Program-made: the position numbers and the translations under genes
Notes under the pieces: model-generated
Databases searched by the model: none
What the model saw: the letters and a program-made list of their open reading frames with translations, nothing else
What the model was told of the DNA's origin: nothing
Source of the DNA: a virus
DNA length: 64,000 nt
Virus record (IMG/VR): IMGVR_UViG_3300046660_000488
Location: 344,640 to 408,639 of that record
Strand: one strand, 5' to 3'
Shown here: piece after piece, positions 39,637 through 50,784 of the stretch
Numbering within the stretch: the first letter of the stretch is position 1
Layout: the number at the start of each line of letters is the position of its first letter

Positions 39637-41913
39637 TTACACGTTGATAACCACGTTGTCATCAACAATCGCGATGTTCGCATCGCCGCCGTTTTCCAGA
39701 GAACCGATCACGATCAACTTGGAAAGAGGCTTGGCGACATTGTCGGACAGGACGCGCTTGAGCGGTCGAGCGCCCATGAGCGGGTCGTAGCCCTTGTCGC
39801 CCAGCCAGTCCAAGGCCTCTTGCGTGAACGACAGATTGACGTTTCGCAGGGAGGCCATTTCCTGAAGCTGGCGAACGAACTTGGCCACGATGTGCAGCAT
39901 GTTCGCCTTGTCCAGCCTGTCGAAGCGGATGTGGGCGTCCAGACGGTTCATGAACTCCGGGGTGAAGAACGCCTTGATCGCGGCGGTATCGCCGCCGACG
40001 TTCTCTTGCGATCCGAAACCGATCCGGTTCTTGGCCCGATCACGCGCCCCGGCATTCGAGGTCATGATCAGATGGATGTACCGGCAGTCGATGGTCTTGT
40101 TCGACGAGTCGGTGAACGAACCATTGTCCATGATCTGGAGGAAGATGTTCAGGACGTCCGGGTGAGCTTTCTCGATCTCATCCAGCAGCACCACGCAATG
40201 AGGCGTGTCGCTGACGCTCTGGGACAGCAGGCCAGCCTGATCCGAGTAGCCGACATAGCCGGGAGGGGCGCCGATCAGCCTGCTGACCGTGTGCTTCTCC
40301 ATGTACTCGGACATGTCGATCCGGATGAGAGGCAGGTTGTAGACGTCCGCGAAGACCTTGGTGACTTCGGTCTTACCCACGCCGGTCGGGCCGGTGAACA
40401 GGTAGGCTCCAGCCGTCTTGTGGTTCTCACGCAGGCCAGCCTTGCTCAGGTAGATCGCGTCGATCAGGGCGGTGATCGCCGCTTCCTGCCCGAAGACGTT
40501 GGCGCGCATCTGCTCGTCGAGACGGATGATGCGTTCCTTGTCGCCCTCGGCCATTTTCTTCGGCGGGATTTTGGCGATCTGCTCAACTTCGGCCTCGATC
40601 TCTTCGACCGTGATCAGACCCTTGCGCTCGACACCTTCCTTCAGGACGTTCTGGGACGCGCCAGCGCAGTCGATCAGGTCGATGGCCTTGTCGGGCAGGA
40701 GCTTGCCGCTGATGTAACGGTGCGACAGGTCAACGGCCGCCACGAGGGCTTCGTCCGTGAATTCGACGTTGTGGAAGGTCGAGTAATAGGGCGCGAGGCC
40801 GCGCAGGATGTCCTTGGCGTCGTCCAGCGACGGTTCGAACACATCCACCTTGCCGAATCGGCGAACGAGTGCCGTGTCCTTCTCGAAGTGCTTGTGGAAC
40901 TCTGACGACGTCGTCGAGCCCATGCAGCGCAGCGTGCCCTTGGCCAGAGCAGGCTTCAGGAGGTTGGCCGCGTCCATCGTGCCGCTGTTGCCAGCCCCGG
41001 CGCCCATGATCATATGGATTTCGTCGATGAACAGGATCGACTTGGGCTTCAGTTCAAGGGCGTTGATGACTTGCTTCATCCGCTCTTCGAAATCACCGCG
41101 ATAGCGAGCGCCAGCCACCAGAGCGGCCAGATCAAGCGCATAGACGGTCGAGTCCAGCAGGATGGCCGGAACCTCGGAGCGAACGATCTTCAGGGCCAGA
41201 CCTTCGGCGATGGCCGTCTTGCCAACACCCGGTTCACCCACCAGCAGCGGGTTGTTCTTCGTCCGGCGGGCGAGGATTTTGACGACGGAGTCCACTTCCT
41301 TCGTCCGGCCGATCAGCGGGTCGATGCTCTTGGTGTTGGCCCGCTCATTCAGGTTGACCGTGTAAAGCGCCAGAATGGAGTCGGCATCAGCTTCGGTCGT
41401 CGGCTTGGGCGGCGCCGTGGTCGGCTCGTCACCAGACATGATATGGCGTGCAAGACCGATGGTCGGCTTCTTGCCGTGCGACATGAAGCGCATCAGGGCC
41501 AGCGGATCGACGCCGAACTTTTGCAGGATCACGACCGCGTAACTGTCCTCCATCTTGGAGCCAGCCAGTTGCAGCAGGACATCCAGAGGGGTGACGTCAG
41601 GATCGGTGTGGGCGGCCTTCTTGCCGGTCGCGTTGAACACCAGTTCATTGGCGCGCGGGCTCGGCTCCGGCTCTTCGTCGCTGGCAGGAATGAGGCCTTC
41701 GGAGTAGAACGACTCCAACTCTTCCTGAATGCCCTCGACGTCGATCTTCATCCCTTCAAGGGCGGAGACCACATCTTCCTGCTCCAGAAGCGACGACAGC
41801 AGGTGTTCGAGGGTGATGAAAGCATGTCTGCGTTCGGTGGCGATTCGTCTAGCCCGAAGAAACATCGCGGCTGTACGCTCAGTTTGAGCGCTATTCTCAG
41901 GCAAATCACTCAT
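39637..41913 (-). CDS. clpA: ClpA-like AAA+ unfoldase with ClpP-docking loop
   Basis: A 758-aa protein with full ClpA architecture: an N-domain ([14 protein letters not shown]), D1 with Walker A GEPGVGKT at about 226 and Walker [10 protein letters not shown]2 with GPTGVGKT at about 508, [14 protein letters not shown], and the small C-terminal domain. It lacks the long middle coiled coil of ClpB. Just before [12 protein letters not shown] lies NRIGFGSQ, the place and form of the IGL/IGF loop by which ClpA/ClpX dock on ClpP. So it could feed substrates to host ClpP. ATG 41913 with AAGG upstream. No phage ClpP seen here. Confidence 0.93.
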
Positions 41914-41923
41914 CAAAAATACC

Positions 41924-42418
41924 TTATCTACGCAATGTCTTACCTCCCGATCCTTTGGCCCTCGATAATACGAGGCGGGAGACGAGAGACACGAACGTCA
42001 CCCCGTTCAGGTGGTCCGTCTCATGAAGGTAGCAGCGTGCGTCGAGATTGGCAAACATTTCGTTTACCAAATTTCCGGCCGCGTCCTGATAGCGCACCTC
42101 GGCGGTGATCGGCCGGGATACCTTCAGGAAAAGGCCGGGGAAGCTCAGGCAACCCTCATCATCCTTGGCCTTGGTCTCGGAGACCGACAGGATTTCCGGG
42201 TTGAAGACGCCGATCTGGCGGCCGTCGCTCGTCTCCATGACGAACATGCGGTAGGGCAGGTTGACTTGCGGAGCGGCCAGACCGATGCCGCGCTCGCGCT
42301 TCATCGTAGACAGCATTTCGCCCACCAACCATTTCGGGTCGGCGGGCGGATTTTCGAAGTCGAAGGGAGGGGTGGGCTCCGACAGGATGGGGTGTGAATC
42401 GGGTACGAGGGTGAACAT
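41924..42418 (-). CDS. def: Peptide deformylase
   Basis: A 164-aa protein with all three deformylase motifs: GIGLAAPQV (motif 1), EGCLSFPG (motif 2) and LHETDHLNG (motif 3, HExxH), where Cys and two His bind the metal. It removes formyl from nascent Met; phage versions in T4-like cyanophages act on phage or photosystem proteins. The C-terminus is short, as in other viral deformylases. TAATG overlap with the upstream gene; the ClpA ribosome site lies in its last codons. Confidence 0.93.
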   Translation of the reverse strand: MFTLVPDSHPILSEPTPPFDFENPPADPKWLVGEMLSTMKRERGIGLAAPQVNLPYRMFVMETSDGRQIGVFNPEILSVSETKAKDDEGCLSFPGLFLKVSRPITAEVRYQDAAGNLVNEMFANLDARCYLHETDHLNGVTFVSLVSRLVLSRAKGSGGKTLRR

Positions 42419-43044
42419 TACAGTCTGGAGCGGATGATCTCGTGCATGACTTCGATCCCAGCGACCTTCAGGTCGTTGCAGGCTTTGGCGTCGCCCATCG
42501 AGACGATGTCGCGAAGCGAGGCGTGGATCAAGTAGGTTTCGGTGAACATCAGGCCGCGAACCTGCGAAGCCCGCTCGTAGGAGATCATCCCCGGCGCCGT
42601 GCCCTCGCGGACAGTGATGTTGTGGCCAAGGCGGCTCATTTCGATGCCGAAGTCGCGGTTGGCCTTGATGCAGGCCTCTTGGTTGACCGGCGCGCCACGG
42701 TTCACAGCGCCACGACCCAGTTCACCGGCCTTGATCCTGTTGGAGACGTTGGCACACAATTGGGTCACGCAGCGGCTGTTGACGGCCGAGCCGACGATCT
42801 GAGCCATCTGGCTGAGGTCTTGAACGTTGGGGTCGAGGCCCTGATAGGTCGGCGAGACATAGCGCGTCTGGCCGTTGGCCATGCGCTGCTGATATTGATA
42901 CTGCGGATACGGACGATCCTGCTGGCGGGTCTGCGGGCCATTGACGGCCGCCACCGCGTCGCGGGTCACGCTTGGATCGAACTGCTGGGCGTTCGCGCTC
43001 GAAGCGAACAGGACAGCGGCGATAGCAAGACCGGCGAGACGCAA
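42418..43044 (-). CDS. Exported (signal-peptide) hypothetical protein
   Basis: A 208-aa protein. The first 20 residues, MRLAGLAIAAVLFASSANAQ, are a Sec signal peptide with an AxA cleavage site, so the protein goes to the periplasm. The rest has four Cys (RCVTQLC, EACI, KACND) likely in disulfides. TTG start with GGAGG five bases upstream. No family recognised. Export of a phage protein suggests a role at the envelope, for example superinfection exclusion; this is a guess. Confidence 0.75.
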   Translation of the reverse strand: MRLAGLAIAAVLFASSANAQQFDPSVTRDAVAAVNGPQTRQQDRPYPQYQYQQRMANGQTRYVSPTYQGLDPNVQDLSQMAQIVGSAVNSRCVTQLCANVSNRIKAGELGRGAVNRGAPVNQEACIKANRDFGIEMSRLGHNITVREGTAPGMISYERASQVRGLMFTETYLIHASLRDIVSMGDAKACNDLKVAGIEVMHEIIRSRL

Positions 43045-43072
43045 GGTGACCTCCAGAGCAATTTCGATTTGG

Positions 43073-43957
43073 CTACGTAGCAGAGTTTTGCTTCTCTTGC
43101 AAGTCTTTTACTTGCAAAAGCAGGCCTTTTTGCTCGTCCGTCAAGTCCTTGGGGACCGTGATGTTGATGACCGCAAAGAGATCACCACGCTCACCACCGC
43201 GCTCAAGGTCCGGCAGACCGTAGCCGCTGATCCTCACCGACGACCCTGACACCTTGGTCGGAACGCCGAAATAAAGCTCTTCGCCCTCCAGCGTCACGAT
43301 CTTGGCCGCGCCGCTGATCATCAGTTCAAGGGCATCCACGTCAACGCGGGCATGCAGGTTCGCGCCGTTGCGCTCGAACGCACGATGCGGCTTGACCCTT
43401 ACCGTCAGGTAAAGGTCTCCAGCCTTGCCGCTCACCCAGTTCCCCATGCCCGGAACACGCAGCCGCGTACCGTGGTGAATGCCCGGTGGGATTTTCACGT
43501 TCAGGGTCTTGGCCGTTTCGAGGCCGGGATCGACCTCGATGTTCACGTTGGCCCCATTCAGTACCGAAATCAGGTCGATATCGACGGCGGCTTGCCGGTC
43601 CATCATCTGGCGACGGATGTGTTCGTCTTGGCGCCTGAAAATTTCCCGATAGCGATCCGCGAACGGGTTGTTGTCGTCGAACGCGAATTCCTGCCACCAG
43701 CCGCCCGCCGCGTCGGCGTTGCGGAAACCGTTCGGGCCATGCGGGTTCTGGCTGAAAGGGCTCGACGCCTGCTTCCACTCATTGCGCTTGGCCTGCGTGG
43801 CGATTTTCTCGTAAGCGGCTGAAATCTCTTTGAAACGAGCGTCGTCACCCCCGTTGCGATCCGGGTGATGTTCCTTGGCCAGCTTGCGGTAGGCCGACTT
43901 GATCTCGTCGTCGGTGGCGGTCTCTGCGACGCCAAGGGTGGTGAAGGGATTGCTCAT
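43073..43957 (-). CDS. dnaJ: DnaJ/CbpA-type co-chaperone
   Basis: A 294-aa protein: N-terminal J-domain (NPFTTLGVAETATDDEIKSA, HPDRNGG) with the HPD tripeptide that stimulates DnaK ATPase, a Gly/Phe-rich linker, and two C-terminal beta-domains (IPPGIHHGTRLRVPGMG and DLYLTVRVKPHRAFER). No zinc-finger, so it resembles CbpA rather than DnaJ. Upstream of an exported protein, deformylase and ClpA in one leftward operon, forming a proteostasis group. Confidence 0.92.
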   Translation of the reverse strand: MSNPFTTLGVAETATDDEIKSAYRKLAKEHHPDRNGGDDARFKEISAAYEKIATQAKRNEWKQASSPFSQNPHGPNGFRNADAAGGWWQEFAFDDNNPFADRYREIFRRQDEHIRRQMMDRQAAVDIDLISVLNGANVNIEVDPGLETAKTLNVKIPPGIHHGTRLRVPGMGNWVSGKAGDLYLTVRVKPHRAFERNGANLHARVDVDALELMISGAAKIVTLEGEELYFGVPTKVSGSSVRISGYGLPDLERGGERGDLFAVINITVPKDLTDEQKGLLLQVKDLQEKQNSAT

Positions 43958-44092: not shown

Positions 44093-44518
44093 ATGACGAA
44101 ACTGGTAAAACGGTTGGCCATCGACGCCCTGCTCGCCTACCTGTTCTATCGGTTCAGCCGCGTGGTGTTCGTCGTCGTCCTGTTTTTCGCGGCCATCTTT
44201 GGCTATGGCGTGATCAGTAGCGCGTGGTCTGATTTCCGCGCCCATGGCGGCGGCGAGCAAATCGACCCTGCAACGGCCGCTTCATTCAGCTACAACACCG
44301 ACGTCAACAACAGCCAAGTGAACTGGACCTTCCGCAACACGTCGGATCGCGTTTTGGGTTCGGTCGAGATTGCATGCGTGGCCAATGGCACGGAGACCCT
44401 GTTCTTGGCGGGCGACTATGTCGCTCCGGGCCAAGAGGTCAGCGGCGCCAAATACAACTCGACCTTCGGCTATGACACGCGGTGTCACCTCGCCGATGCG
44501 AGACTGTACGACAAGTGA
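44093..44518 (+). CDS. Membrane-anchored hypothetical protein
   Basis: A 141-aa protein with a strong N-terminal membrane segment (about residues 21-45, FSRVVFVVVLFFAAIFGYGV) and an extracytoplasmic beta-rich domain with two Cys. GTAGGAG precedes the ATG, so it is well translated. Early promoter, single gene, followed by hairpins: fits a small early envelope-modifying protein. Function unknown. Confidence 0.75.
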   Translation: MTKLVKRLAIDALLAYLFYRFSRVVFVVVLFFAAIFGYGVISSAWSDFRAHGGGEQIDPATAASFSYNTDVNNSQVNWTFRNTSDRVLGSVEIACVANGTETLFLAGDYVAPGQEVSGAKYNSTFGYDTRCHLADARLYDK

Positions 44519-44521
44519 CTG

Positions 44522-44545
44522 ATCAGGCGGGCTTGCCCGCCTGAT
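44522..44545. terminator. Bidirectional GC hairpin
   Basis: ATCAGGCGGGC (44522-44532) pairs with GCCCGCCTGAT (44535-44545), an 11-base perfect stem after the membrane-protein stop. No T-run. Confidence 0.6.
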
Positions 44546-44592
44546 GGTTTGGATGACACACTCGCTATCGCTCGCTGGCTGTCATCCAAACC
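44546..44592. repeat. 13-base inverted repeat hairpin
   Basis: GGTTTGGATGACA (44546-44558) pairs perfectly with TGTCATCCAAACC (44580-44592), loop 21 bases. Stacked directly beside the hairpin at 44522-44545. It may end the structured RNA on the minus strand or the membrane-protein mRNA on the plus strand. Confidence 0.65.
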
Positions 44593-44599
44593 GATTTGA

Positions 44600-45214
44600 C
44601 TGTCCTTCCTTGAGACAGTTTCTTTCCTTGTATCCTAGATTTATGTTGCATTTCTCTCCCCCTACCACAAGCAATCCCCCGTAAAGGGGGACTGACTTGC
44701 GGTAAAGGGAGAAGTGCAGACGATCCTGAGTTCGTAGTTGCTCAACCCGTGGCGTACCGCGTCTATAGCGGGGCTGGCGGTTCTCCTGTACCAGCTTGTT
44801 GCACACGTTATCTCGATCCGACCCACCTGAAGGTGGTCGAGTTGCGTCTTGACCGGTGGATGTGCCTTTCGGCGCTTTCATCCCCGAGACGTGCTTGACG
44901 GGTGGTCGTGTGTGATCTGAACGGTTATGGCTCCCTCTCGGGGCCAATCTTACAGACCTCGCCGGTTGAGAGACGGGTCCGCACGGATAGTTGTCAAACG
45001 CGAGACATAGCTATCCTCTTTCATAAAAAGCCTTTCGTGGACCAAATTCTGGTTCACCAAGCGGCTGTGACGGGATATGCTCGCCGTGGGGCTTTCACCC
45101 GCGTGGCAATCCGACCTACTTGTTCGGTGCGCTCCTGACGTTCCGGTCCGTTGATCCCGGTTGGTCGGTTGGGCTGGGCTACCCGATACTTACTGCCCTG
45201 CGCGTATAGCTGTA
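44600..45214 (-). ncRNA. Candidate large structured noncoding RNA (about 600 nt)
   Basis: A 750-base stretch (44519-45268) has no credible ORF: the open frames on both strands are short, Arg/Pro-rich and lack start sites. Read on the minus strand it folds into many nested helices: CCGCAAG/CTTGTGG (44702-44696 with 44671-44665) enclosing CCCCC/GGGGG; GGATG...GCC-GAAA-GGC...CATCC (44883-44858); CGAC-CACC-TTCA-GGTG-GTCG with one bulge (44839-44819); GGATAG/CTATCC (45016-44985) with inner TGTC/GACA; GGGT-GAAA-GCCC (45100-45089); GCTGG/CCAGC (44795-44773). GAAA tetraloops and a G-U pair exist only on the minus strand, which favours that strand. A promoter-like TTGACT-18-TATTGT precedes it. Size and setting recall phage-associated ornate RNAs such as GOLLD or ROOL; identity is not shown. 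Confidence 0.5.
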
Positions 45215-45220
45215 AGTTGG

Positions 45221-45250
45221 ACAATAGAATCATAACGTGTGCTGAGTCAA
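45221..45250 (-). promoter_or_regulatory. Promoter-like element for structured RNA
   Basis: Minus strand TTGACT (45250-45245), 18-base spacer, TATTGT (45226-45221). It would start transcription near 45214, at the edge of the folded region. Confidence 0.45.
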
Positions 45251-45268
45251 AATGAATCGGTGGTTGCA

Positions 45269-45679
45269 TTGAACTTAGATGTTTGGCGGTTCCAAGATGA
45301 CCGGCTGGTCATGGTGCTGACGCCGATCAATTCGGACGGCGGCAATGATCGTGCGATTTACACGCCGGGCACTCCAGAATCCGAAGCGTTCAAGTTGCTG
45401 CGCGATGACACGATGTCGAAAAGGCATACCATCCTCTTGGTGGCCGACTGCATCGTTGAGGGTATTTTCAAGTTCAGTCTTTTCAAGACGGTGGCGCCAT
45501 GGACGCCGGACGCGGACGTCAGGCTGCGCGAGAATTCGATCCTGACCGAATTCTTCGAAAGATGCCCGGCGACCCGCATGGAGAAAATGCAGCACGTTCC
45601 GGGTGTTGACGCTTCGACTGAATTGAACATCTACATCCGGATAGAAGACCTGATGTTCCTGCGGATGATGTACTCATGA
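45269..45679 (+). CDS. Tandem paralogue family member 1 of 3
   Basis: A 136-aa protein. TTG 45269 is chosen because it aligns with the start of the next paralogue (MNLDVWRF against MKLDVWSF); a GTG at 45239 is possible. Shared landmarks: LDVWRF...LVMVLTP at the start, LTEFFERCPATR in the middle and LMFLRMMYS at the end. Alpha/beta pattern; no known family. Coupled to the next gene by ATGA. Confidence 0.75.
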   Translation: MNLDVWRFQDDRLVMVLTPINSDGGNDRAIYTPGTPESEAFKLLRDDTMSKRHTILLVADCIVEGIFKFSLFKTVAPWTPDADVRLRENSILTEFFERCPATRMEKMQHVPGVDASTELNIYIRIEDLMFLRMMYS

Positions 45680-46092
45680 AACTCGACGTCTGGAGTTTTC
45701 ACGAAGGACTGCTGAACCTCGTCATCACGCCGATGCCCAAGGGCGTCAGCCATAGTTTGGCAGACGGACGTCGCACATGGCCGCCATCGACGTCGGCGTG
45801 GTGTATCGCGTTCAATAAATTCCAAGCCGACGCCCGCAAAGATAACCGCGCCATCACCCTCGTGACCGTGACCATCGAGGACGGCGTGTACGAATTCGCC
45901 GTGGCCAATATGGCGGAGCCTCGCTCGGGCTGGGCGATCCAGAACAACTCCATGCTGTCGGAATTCTTCGAGCGATGCCCGGCGGCTCGAACCAAGGTCG
46001 TGAACCTTCACCCTGACATTGCGGACGCCACCCGGACGCTGGTCTACATCCGGCAAGAAGACTTGATGTTCCTGCGGATGCTCTACGCATGA
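45676..46092 (+). CDS. Tandem paralogue family member 2 of 3
   Basis: A 138-aa protein (MKLDVWSFHEGLLNLVITP...). Aligns end to end with member 1: LSEFFERCPAARTKVVNLHP against LTEFFERCPATRMEKMQHVP and LMFLRMLYA against LMFLRMMYS. Overlaps neighbours on both sides by ATGA. Function unknown. Confidence 0.8.
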   Translation: MKLDVWSFHEGLLNLVITPMPKGVSHSLADGRRTWPPSTSAWCIAFNKFQADARKDNRAITLVTVTIEDGVYEFAVANMAEPRSGWAIQNNSMLSEFFERCPAARTKVVNLHPDIADATRTLVYIRQEDLMFLRMLYA

Positions 46093-46517
46093 CCAGCAAG
46101 CCTGCGACGCTCTGGACCCTGTTCGGTGGAAAGTTGGTTCTCGCGGTCAGGCCTGAAGGCTGGGGCGGCGTCCTCACGTTCGTGATCGGCAACGACAAGA
46201 GAGACGAATGTCGGTTGTTGTTCAAGCAGGAACCGACGCCAAGGGGTTCGCCATATGTCTTCAAGCTATGGTACGGGGCGCGCCACCAAGGTGACCCCGA
46301 TTTGCGCGGCGTTGAGTATGTCAAATATGTGCTTGATGATTTCCTAGCGGTGTGCCCACGGTCTCGCGTTTACGAAGTGAAGCCGGAGCCCGTGCCATCG
46401 GTCCCCAACCAGCATGGCTTTCTGCCGGTTGGGCCGAATTGGAACGACCAGTCTATCGGGACCTTCCTCGAAGTGGCGACTCTGGCCGACCTGACTGTCC
46501 TTCGGATGATGGACTAA
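46089..46517 (+). CDS. Tandem paralogue family member 3 of 3 (divergent)
   Basis: A 142-aa protein. It keeps the frame of the family: LWTLFGGKLVLAVRP near the start, LDDFLAVCPRSRVYEV in the middle and LTVLRMMD at the end, but is more diverged, with its own insertions. ATGA overlap with member 2. Confidence 0.78.
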   Translation: MTSKPATLWTLFGGKLVLAVRPEGWGGVLTFVIGNDKRDECRLLFKQEPTPRGSPYVFKLWYGARHQGDPDLRGVEYVKYVLDDFLAVCPRSRVYEVKPEPVPSVPNQHGFLPVGPNWNDQSIGTFLEVATLADLTVLRMMD

Positions 46518-48836: not shown

Positions 48837-48861
48837 ACCAGAATATTTGGGGAGTTATACA

Positions 48862-50784
48862 ATGCCTTCAGTTGGTAGCAGCCGCGTCAAGACGTCCGGC
48901 CGTGGTGAGATCGAGTACTCGCAGGATTCTGCAACAAGCAATGGCGCGACGACCGCTGCTGTTTCGACCCCTGTTGATGAGCCGATCCTGTCGGTTGTCG
49001 GCGAGAACGTCGGTGGTGGCCTTGGCCTCTTCAACGGCGTCAACGGCTCCGACCATGTGGTCATGGAGTTCAAGACCCTCAAGGCAGGCGCGGGCATCGC
49101 GATTGTCAACGACGGTCTGTCCCTGACCATCCGCGCCACCGGCAATGCGACCGGCAACGGCGGCACGATCATCGGCGACGGCTTCGACATCCAGCTTGGC
49201 GACATCGCCAACAAGGGTGACGGCTCGTGGGCGCCGGGCGCCGTGGACCTGACGGACTCGACCCCGATGTCCGAAGCCATCGACGAGATCAACGAACTGC
49301 TCGGCCTGTTGATCCCCGCAGCCCCGCCCGCTTTCCCCAACGGCACGCTGACGATCATCAACACCGCTGGCAACTCGCCGCGTCTGGCCGCTGGCTTCAC
49401 CAGCCACGTCACGGGTCAGGGCACGCCGGTCGCGGGCGATGCTGTCGCGCGCATCACGACCACGGGCGTCAGCACCAACACCCTCAACGACGTCGGCCCG
49501 GCTAACCGTGGCAAGATTCAGCTTCTGCTGAACGACGGTTTCGTCGGCGAGCGCACGCTGACGGAGAACAGCGACAACGGCAACTACGGCGGCCTGATCA
49601 TTTCCGACGAGAAGGACTTCCCGGTCGATAAGCCCGGTTTCTGGAAGTCGCTCGACGTTGCTGGCACGGCCGTCCCGGTCGCCCAAGGCCTCAACAAGGT
49701 CCGCATCAACCACACCAACGCTGGCACGACGGCCAACACGCTGTTCGTCCGCGACGACATGACGGCTTCGCCGTCCATCCCGACTGGCTCGGTTGCTCTC
49801 CAGACGCTGGGTACAGTCGCCTATTCGTCGGGCATCCCGCACTTCGGCCAAGGCGGCGTCCTGACGGTTGGCGGCTCGATCACCAATCTGGCTGGCCAGA
49901 CCTACTACGGCGGCAACGATCCGCTGACGATCACCGGCACGAACACGGTCACGACGGCTCAAGCCTTCAGCTACACTTCGCTCGGCATCACCACCCCGAT
50001 CCCGGCACAGACGACGTCTGCGACCGCGACGACCGGCGTGGCTGTCAGCATCGACGGCACGACCCATTCGTCGGGCGTCATCCAAGCCGTGGCCAAGAAC
50101 GTCAACGGACAAACGGCTCCGACGACGCTGTCGCAGTCGATCATTCTGGTCAAGCGCGGCGTCGCCGCCTCGAACCGTCTGGACGAACTGAACGTCCCGG
50201 TCATCAATCTGGGCACGGTCCCCAACGCCAATTACGCCACGCGCACTCTGATCGCCGCCAACGCCGACCGTCCGGCTGGCGCTACGGCCAACTGGGACGC
50301 CACGGCGGCTCTGGCCAGCTACGAAGCCGCAGTCTGGGCTGGCGCTCTGGGTCACTGCCAAGTCGATTTCACCAGCGGTTACCTGCCGCAGGGTCCGAAT
50401 TACTCGCAGGGCCGCAGCGGCGCTCAGTACGCGACCTTCACGTTCAACCGCGCCTCGGTCTCCAATTTCCGCATCAACGTCGTCGGCACGTACGCAGGAG
50501 TTTGGGTGAAGCTTCCGGGCGTCTCCGACAACTCGGCGATCTCTCCGAACGCCACGAACGGCTGGTGGGACGCCACCAAGGCTTACGCCGGTGCTGGTGT
50601 CCCCGGCAACTCGTCGGACTCGCTGGCTGGCTGCGTCGTCGGCACGCCGATGGGCGGAACTTCCGGCGCCTATCAGATCACTTTTGGTCCTCAGTCTTCG
50701 ACGAACGCGACCTCGAACCAGATCATTGTCCGTATTCGTCTGAACGCTGGGCAAGTCATTACTTCGCTCAATTTCTCTAACTAA
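48862..50784 (+). CDS. Tail fibre-like structural protein
   Basis: A 640-aa protein from ATG 48862 (GGGGAG upstream; a TTG at 48847 is rejected). Beta-rich and Gly/Thr/Ala/Asn-rich, with strand repeats typical of fibres (GAGIAIVNDGLSLTIRATGN). The C-terminal 120 residues end in a compact domain (TFNRASVSNFRINVVGTYAG) that resembles the tips of phage fibre proteins. Heavily biased, C-ending codons. First large gene of the fibre cluster. Confidence 0.78.
   Translation: MPSVGSSRVKTSGRGEIEYSQDSATSNGATTAAVSTPVDEPILSVVGENVGGGLGLFNGVNGSDHVVMEFKTLKAGAGIAIVNDGLSLTIRATGNATGNGGTIIGDGFDIQLGDIANKGDGSWAPGAVDLTDSTPMSEAIDEINELLGLLIPAAPPAFPNGTLTIINTAGNSPRLAAGFTSHVTGQGTPVAGDAVARITTTGVSTNTLNDVGPANRGKIQLLLNDGFVGERTLTENSDNGNYGGLIISDEKDFPVDKPGFWKSLDVAGTAVPVAQGLNKVRINHTNAGTTANTLFVRDDMTASPSIPTGSVALQTLGTVAYSSGIPHFGQGGVLTVGGSITNLAGQTYYGGNDPLTITGTNTVTTAQAFSYTSLGITTPIPAQTTSATATTGVAVSIDGTTHSSGVIQAVAKNVNGQTAPTTLSQSIILVKRGVAASNRLDELNVPVINLGTVPNANYATRTLIAANADRPAGATANWDATAALASYEAAVWAGALGHCQVDFTSGYLPQGPNYSQGRSGAQYATFTFNRASVSNFRINVVGTYAGVWVKLPGVSDNSAISPNATNGWWDATKAYAGAGVPGNSSDSLAGCVVGTPMGGTSGAYQITFGPQSSTNATSNQIIVRIRLNAGQVITSLNFSN

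Follow-up and report, generated by a model that had tools for sequence, protein, structure and literature searches.

The minus strand of positions 44519–45268 in the window, the 64,000-nt stretch of viral DNA analysed here, is predicted to carry a stand-alone gene for a structured RNA, copy A, which extends from about 45214 to 44523 and the transcription of which is inferred. The initial annotation had proposed a search for homologues and covariation, and both are found: copies occur in several phages and two domains of the RNA covary. It is probable (about 0.8), judged by analogy, that copy A belongs to a new family of large phage RNAs that act in trans, come from genes of their own and work like GOLLD and ROOL. 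The sequences support a family that is absent from Rfam, probably comprises two subfamilies, is new beside GOLLD and ROOL, and is unusual in that one genome contains several paralogues of the RNA gene.

Genomic setting and coding potential

The window corresponds to positions 344,640–408,639 of a virus record spanning 578,292 bp (the 578-kb phage). The nearest relatives of its tail protein (48847–50781) are in Caulobacter and Brevundimonas phages, and its ClpA is nearest to those of Sinorhizobium phage Phosso, an Acinetobacter phage and Agrobacterium phage Atu_ph07; the record is inferred to be a giant phage, the host of which is probably an alphaproteobacterium. The ClpA gene lies in a minus-strand cluster (39637–43957) with genes for DnaJ and for a peptide deformylase recognised by sequence. 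Elsewhere, ClpA is accompanied by a deformylase in Phosso and by DnaJ in Atu_ph07.

The stretch is bounded on the left by a plus-strand gene ending at 44518 and on the right by a diverging plus-strand ORF that starts with GTG at 45239. It was first described as 750 bases without a gene, which is confirmed except for the last 30 bases, where the latter ORF overlaps it. The description of a bordering tandem array of an unknown protein family is borne out, since its three proteins of 138–146 aa fall into no Pfam family and match nothing in PHROGs convincingly. An IMG/VR scan with the products of the 44093 and 45239 genes as queries gave no relatives. A possible relative of the array diverges from the orthologous RNA copy F; BLASTP did not pair the two.

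Several longer ORFs cross the stretch, of 121 aa (TTG start, minus strand), 71 aa and 78 aa. Most of the gaps that separate copy A from its homologues have a length not divisible by three (23 of 29 against copy C, 30 of 34 against copy F and 22 of 27 against copy E), so no ORF is kept across the stretch and the earlier view that it holds no credible ORF stands. Folding of the sequence beats all 20 dinucleotide shuffles, with z = -6.9 for the minus strand and z = -5.3 for the plus strand.

Organization of copy A

The neighbours and predicted elements of copy A are listed below, from the diverging array through the RNA in its 5' to 3' direction to the converging gene.

45239–46517, plus: diverging tandem array of three 138–146 aa proteins of unknown family; the first start codon (GTG, 45239) abuts the -35 box
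45245–45250, minus: -35 box TTGACT; 14 of 19 copies have TTGAC exactly 18 nt from the -10 box
45221–45226, minus: -10 box TATTGT, 18 nt from the -35 box; same motif count
44523–45214, minus: predicted ncRNA gene copy A, about 690 nt; homologues with covariation
45171–45198, minus: 5' H-type pseudoknot, GGGC/GCCC and GGGU/GCCC; complementarity covaries, 0 of 20000 permutations per helix
45143–45161, minus: CCGG...CCGG helix 3' of the pseudoknot; seen by eye only in A, C, F and copies of G002 and G007, with no formal test
45030–45065, minus: GCC-[hairpin]-GAAAGGC element; helix 1 of alignment A7, 91.7% paired
44985–45016, minus: GGATAG..CUAUCC hairpin with inner GUC/GAC helix (consensus UGUC/GACA); A7 helices 2 and 3
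44953–44981, minus: 7-bp helix with a conserved loop around UCYCUCRAC; A7 helix 4, two-sided changes in 7 of 7 pairs
44920–44947, minus: small variable hairpin followed by invariant AACCGU; alignments A4 and A7
44812–44921, minus: core, with closing helix, CGACCACC/GGUGGGUCG helix, GUC/GAC helix and inner arm; helices 1–8 of alignment A5
44858–44885, minus: GGGGAUGAAAGC..GCACAUCC arm with GAAA cap, the first GAAA hairpin of the initial annotation; A5 helices 7 and 8
44773–44795, minus: signature hairpin GCUGGUacaGGagaACCGCCAGC; A5 helices 9 and 10, 99–100% paired
44757–44771, minus: CCGC-UAUAGAC-GCGG hairpin; A5 helix 11, two-sided changes in 4 of 4 pairs
44654–44714, minus: long hairpin CUUCUCCC..GGGGGAGAG, its length differing among copies; alignments A1 and A4
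44632–44643, minus: conserved linker UAAAUCUAGGAU; AAAUCUA invariant in six copies
44546–44592, minus: 3' hairpin with AGCGAUAGCGA tip; alignments and element coordinates
44523–44544, minus: terminal GC-rich hairpin UCAGGCGGGCAAGCCCGCCUGA, without a U-tract; from the sequence
44093–44518, plus: converging gene, 141 aa, without a Pfam or PHROGs match

The individual elements named at the outset are present, namely the two GAAA hairpins (GCCGAAAGGC at 44864–44873 and GGGTGAAAGCCC at 45089–45100), the two left-end hairpins (44546–44592 and 44523–44544) and the motif TTGACT-18-TATTGT (45250–45245, then exactly 18 bases, then 45226–45221). The length given there, about 615 nt, has to be corrected to a predicted transcript nearer 690 nt, and the conserved 5' pseudoknot, found here by comparison of copies, was absent from that description. 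An 11-bp helix between the promoter spacer and 44800, suggested by the single sequence, was discarded because homologues B and C do not keep it. Both ends of copy A are inferred, the start from its position about 7 nt after the -10 box and the end from the terminal hairpin, and the 3' end is uncertain because this hairpin lacks a U-tract; the same hairpin is possibly a bidirectional terminator.

The promoter-like motif recurs in the family. TTGAC, exactly 18 bases and a TATNNT-like box are found in 14 of 19 copies, compared with 14 of 1774 background windows (0.8%), and the motif lies 280–355 nt before the core. Since the pattern was drawn up after the copies had been seen, the enrichment ratio is only indicative. 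Transcription by an RNA polymerase of the host type is an inference from this motif. At the gene position shared by copy A and its orthologues (slot 2, below), the start of the diverging gene's coding sequence runs into the -35 region, and this overlap may add to the conservation of the -35 box there.

Homologues in giant phages and elsewhere

A DNA search of the 578-kb genome itself gave two more copies, B and C, with C 62% identical to A over nearly its whole length and B 63% identical over the middle part. The covariance model R1, built from A, B and C (175 positions, 44 pairs), found a fourth copy outside its training set, D, in the same genome (E = 1.1e-27); identity among the four copies is 44–60% within the conserved part. 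Model R1 also found two copies in a related 415-kb phage (E = 2.2e-27 and 2.5e-14), a genome that had been retrieved via its tail protein and not by RNA sequence. Further records were brought in by conserved-sequence patterns together with R1 and the model R2, and other large records contain three copies (G002, 608 kb), four (G007, 457 kb) and two (G012, 240 kb), with additional copies on several shorter contigs. The third copy of the 608-kb phage (E = 1.5e-5) has a compensated signature hairpin, GGAGG..CCUCC. One copy lies in the chromosome of Microvirga sp. VF16.

Many of the distant copies were first retrieved by a hairpin pattern, and their significance is inflated for that reason; those not selected in this way are D, E, F, G2b, G2c, G7c, G7d, G12b and two copies of G021. 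Two matches to the hairpin pattern (L129 and L131) were rejected as ordinary sequence without other features of the family. Model R2 gives copy A 145 bits (E = 4.2e-36), with A within its training set. Copy A has all the features of subfamily I: the TTGAC-N18-TANNNT motif upstream, the 5' pseudoknot with the UGUC/GACA hairpin domain, and the core with the signature hairpin, the last being met by copy A under R2 and by the unbiased copies D, E and F under R1. BLASTN of copy A, G2a, G7a and copies of the compact subfamily against 50,697 phage records returned nothing relevant, R1 had no match in nine named phages (about 2.8 Mb, including Atu_ph07, Phosso and the Caulobacter and Brevundimonas phages), and R2 on six of these nine gave only one chance match of 16.6 bits, inside an Atu_ph07 gene.

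A compact relative of about 430 nt occurs in records G016–G018 and G021–G025, with three copies in a 453-kb phage. The three modules that it shares with subfamily I follow the same order there, with a GGAUCGCUCUAUC..GAUAACGAUC hairpin, then the closing helix, signature hairpin and neighbour hairpin, and then a GGGGGAGA hairpin, and seven of its sequences have two-sided changes in 43 of 99 predicted pairs. The R2 scores are moderate (24–32 bits) and partly owing to the hairpin pattern. From the shared module order and these scores, homology of the compact subfamily to subfamily I is probable but not proven. The compact RNA of L154 (G023) has its 5' element twice in tandem upstream of the core.

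Conserved structure

Alignment A5 comprises 20 sequences placed on the model; standard pairs fill 92.4% of its 711 base-pair cells, compared with 71.1% when shuffled and 28–46% for slid structures, and two-sided changes affect 33 of 44 pairs. The covariation in alignment A2 was reached in 0 of 500 shuffles. The separate 5' domain was aligned by plain MAFFT without structure (A7) and is 95.7% paired, with two-sided changes in 15 of 19 pairs; its helices 2 and 3 are 97.5% and 98.4% paired, with two-sided changes in 7 of 9 pairs. The stem of the signature hairpin covaries, and its apical loop is GNRA in most homologues and AGAA in copy A.

Just after the promoter, the best pseudoknot of nearly all copies is of the H type and takes the form GGAAGU-N-GGGGU-N-ACUUCC-A-CCCC; G2c is a clear exception. 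Strands taken from the same copy form 3.94 and 3.81 of 4 pairs in the two helices, whereas strands taken from different copies form 2.44 and 3.08, and in 16 copies none of 20000 permutations equalled the observed complementarity for either helix. Because the helices were picked as the best in each copy, it is the contrast between copies that makes this a fair test. The initial annotation had offered GOLLD, ROOL or a new class; the homologues and covariation support the new class, while no Rfam match speaks for GOLLD or ROOL.

Gene positions and relation to neighbouring genes

Two positions recur among the phages. In slot 1 the order is a Smr-domain gene, a HAD-like gene, the RNA and an exonuclease-like gene of the RNase H fold, and its members are C (578-kb phage), E (415-kb phage), G7d (457-kb phage) and, by the exonuclease gene only, G2b (608-kb phage). 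The Smr-domain gene near copy C is L003:271-633 (E = 2.6e-11), and three giant phages have a Smr gene close to their slot-1 RNA. Slot 2, between the tail-gene side and the DnaJ side, contains A, F and G10, which form one clade (95/94 support); DnaJ and a spanin-like gene place G7b there as well. Younger pairs are B with D and G12a with G12b. Thus, some paralogues predate the divergence of the phages and others are specific to a lineage. A copy in the 608-kb phage is flanked by a glutamyl/glutaminyl-tRNA synthetase-like gene (L120:13-900, minus strand), recognised by sequence without a profile search.

In slot 1 the exonuclease-like gene comes next in the same direction as the RNA (C, E and G2b), as it would if the RNA were a cis-regulatory leader or a long untranslated region. 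That reading is improbable, for the downstream genes differ among copies and the next gene on the strand of copy A is DnaJ, beyond the converging gene and the terminal hairpin. One neighbour of copy A points toward it and the other away from it, so copy A is the leader of neither.

Comparison with known RNAs and other explanations

GOLLD forms a closed RNA-only 14-mer cage, and GOLLD and ROOL are typically near tRNA genes. Both are large phage RNAs of unknown function that are abundant or lysis-induced and form RNA-only cages (PMC12286853). ROOL, of about 660 nt, is borne by phages and prophages and is highly structured, with pseudoknots and no known protein partner, while GOLLD is very large, with one conserved and one more variable part (PMC12286853). 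The new RNA resembles ROOL in size, phage setting, ornate pseudoknotted fold and lack of a known protein partner, and resembles GOLLD in being a very large phage RNA with a conserved and a variable part. It differs from ROOL in its conserved sequences and from GOLLD in that its 5' domain also covaries well. The lytic phage K produces two long, abundant ncRNAs near tRNA genes that have been likened to GOLLD and ROOL by location and abundance (PMC9241854); they too are large non-coding phage RNAs, but unlike the new RNA they adjoin tRNA genes.

Similar size, phage location, ornate fold and unknown function (PMC12286853) would also suit a divergent GOLLD or ROOL too distant for the Rfam models. 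This is very improbable. Rfam 15 at the gathering score matches no family anywhere in the window, GOLLD and ROOL included, and at relaxed thresholds neither matches copy A up to E 10 or the homologues up to E 1; ARAGORN, run on the window and on 27 other loci, finds no tRNA, and the new RNA has several paralogues per genome. The open-access full texts contain no description of the family that we could find, subscription papers and most preprints being outside the scope of that search.

The other relaxed-threshold Rfam matches in the window, copy A and the homologues are spurious hairpins, with one exception. Polynucleobacter-1 RNA (RF01718) is an RNA of about 141 nt from Burkholderiales and from fresh water and estuaries (PMC2864571). 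It matches L046:268-599 (minus strand) with 54 bits, directly upstream of a possible signature-hairpin module, and neither copy A nor any other homologue reaches its gathering score of 37 bits. L046 is a possible distant relative of the family, a kinship less certain than that of the compact subfamily. Because RF01718 adjoins the signature-hairpin module there, this Rfam family may represent only part of a larger RNA that has a 3' module of this kind.

An RNA belonging to a mobile or RNA-guided element (group II intron, retron, omega RNA or transposon remnant) is hardly plausible. The copies are dispersed and several in number, and the Microvirga copy adjoins a tyrosine recombinase fragment, yet no reverse transcriptase, transposase or IscB/TnpB-like gene was recognised beside the inspected copies (without a systematic search), and Rfam gives no intron or HEARO match. 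The identities of 41–62% and the conserved positions across diverged phages point to old vertical inheritance. In Microvirga sp. VF16 the RNA directly follows the C-terminal part of the recombinase (L130:84-1400), and the two are possibly what is left of an integrated element.

A tmRNA-like or ribosome-rescue RNA is scarcely credible. The 457-kb phage does encode SmpB (E = 8.4e-50; L128, G007:C1 near 200103-200501) about 0.9 kb after the G7d core, and a Smr-domain gene lies beside three copies (2.6e-11 near copy C). However, SmpB is missing from the seven other RNA-bearing records searched and, at one record in eight, was rejected as a general partner of the family; neither ARAGORN nor Rfam finds a tmRNA. 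Chance folding of GC-rich intergenic DNA, which single-sequence folds alone cannot exclude, can be practically dismissed, because it conflicts with the covariation that two independent domains show against controls and with the unbiased homologues.

Possible role and significance

If copy A is a member of a new family of large trans-acting phage RNAs, a sigma70-type promoter of the kind used by host RNA polymerase (TTGACT-N18-TATTGT) would drive a transcript of about 690 nt toward the GC-rich hairpin. The transcript would fold into the 5' pseudoknot, a hairpin-rich middle domain, the branched core, the signature hairpin (usually with a GNRA loop) and the variable 3' hairpin. It would then most likely serve as an abundant structural RNA of infection, as an RNA scaffold, perhaps an RNA-only oligomer, or in an RNA–protein particle, and diverged gene copies would raise its dosage or supply different subunits. 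Abundance or high dosage and action in trans are inferred, and the scaffold or oligomer role rests on the analogy with GOLLD and ROOL only. That the paralogous RNAs of one phage co-assemble, as different subunits of an RNA-only hetero-oligomer (a cage or compartment) or of an RNA particle, is speculative and doubtful.

The presence of four copies in the 578-kb phage and of one to four in other giant phages suggests an important role of the RNA during infection, and since phages that differ greatly in base composition keep such copies at the same gene positions, lasting selection is implied. Large ornate phage RNAs are rare. With up to four paralogous genes per giant phage, the family provides a comparative handle on the role of such RNAs, through paralogues versus orthologues, dosage and subunits, and one copy belongs to a bacterial chromosome, that of Microvirga sp. 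VF16, which may be culturable.
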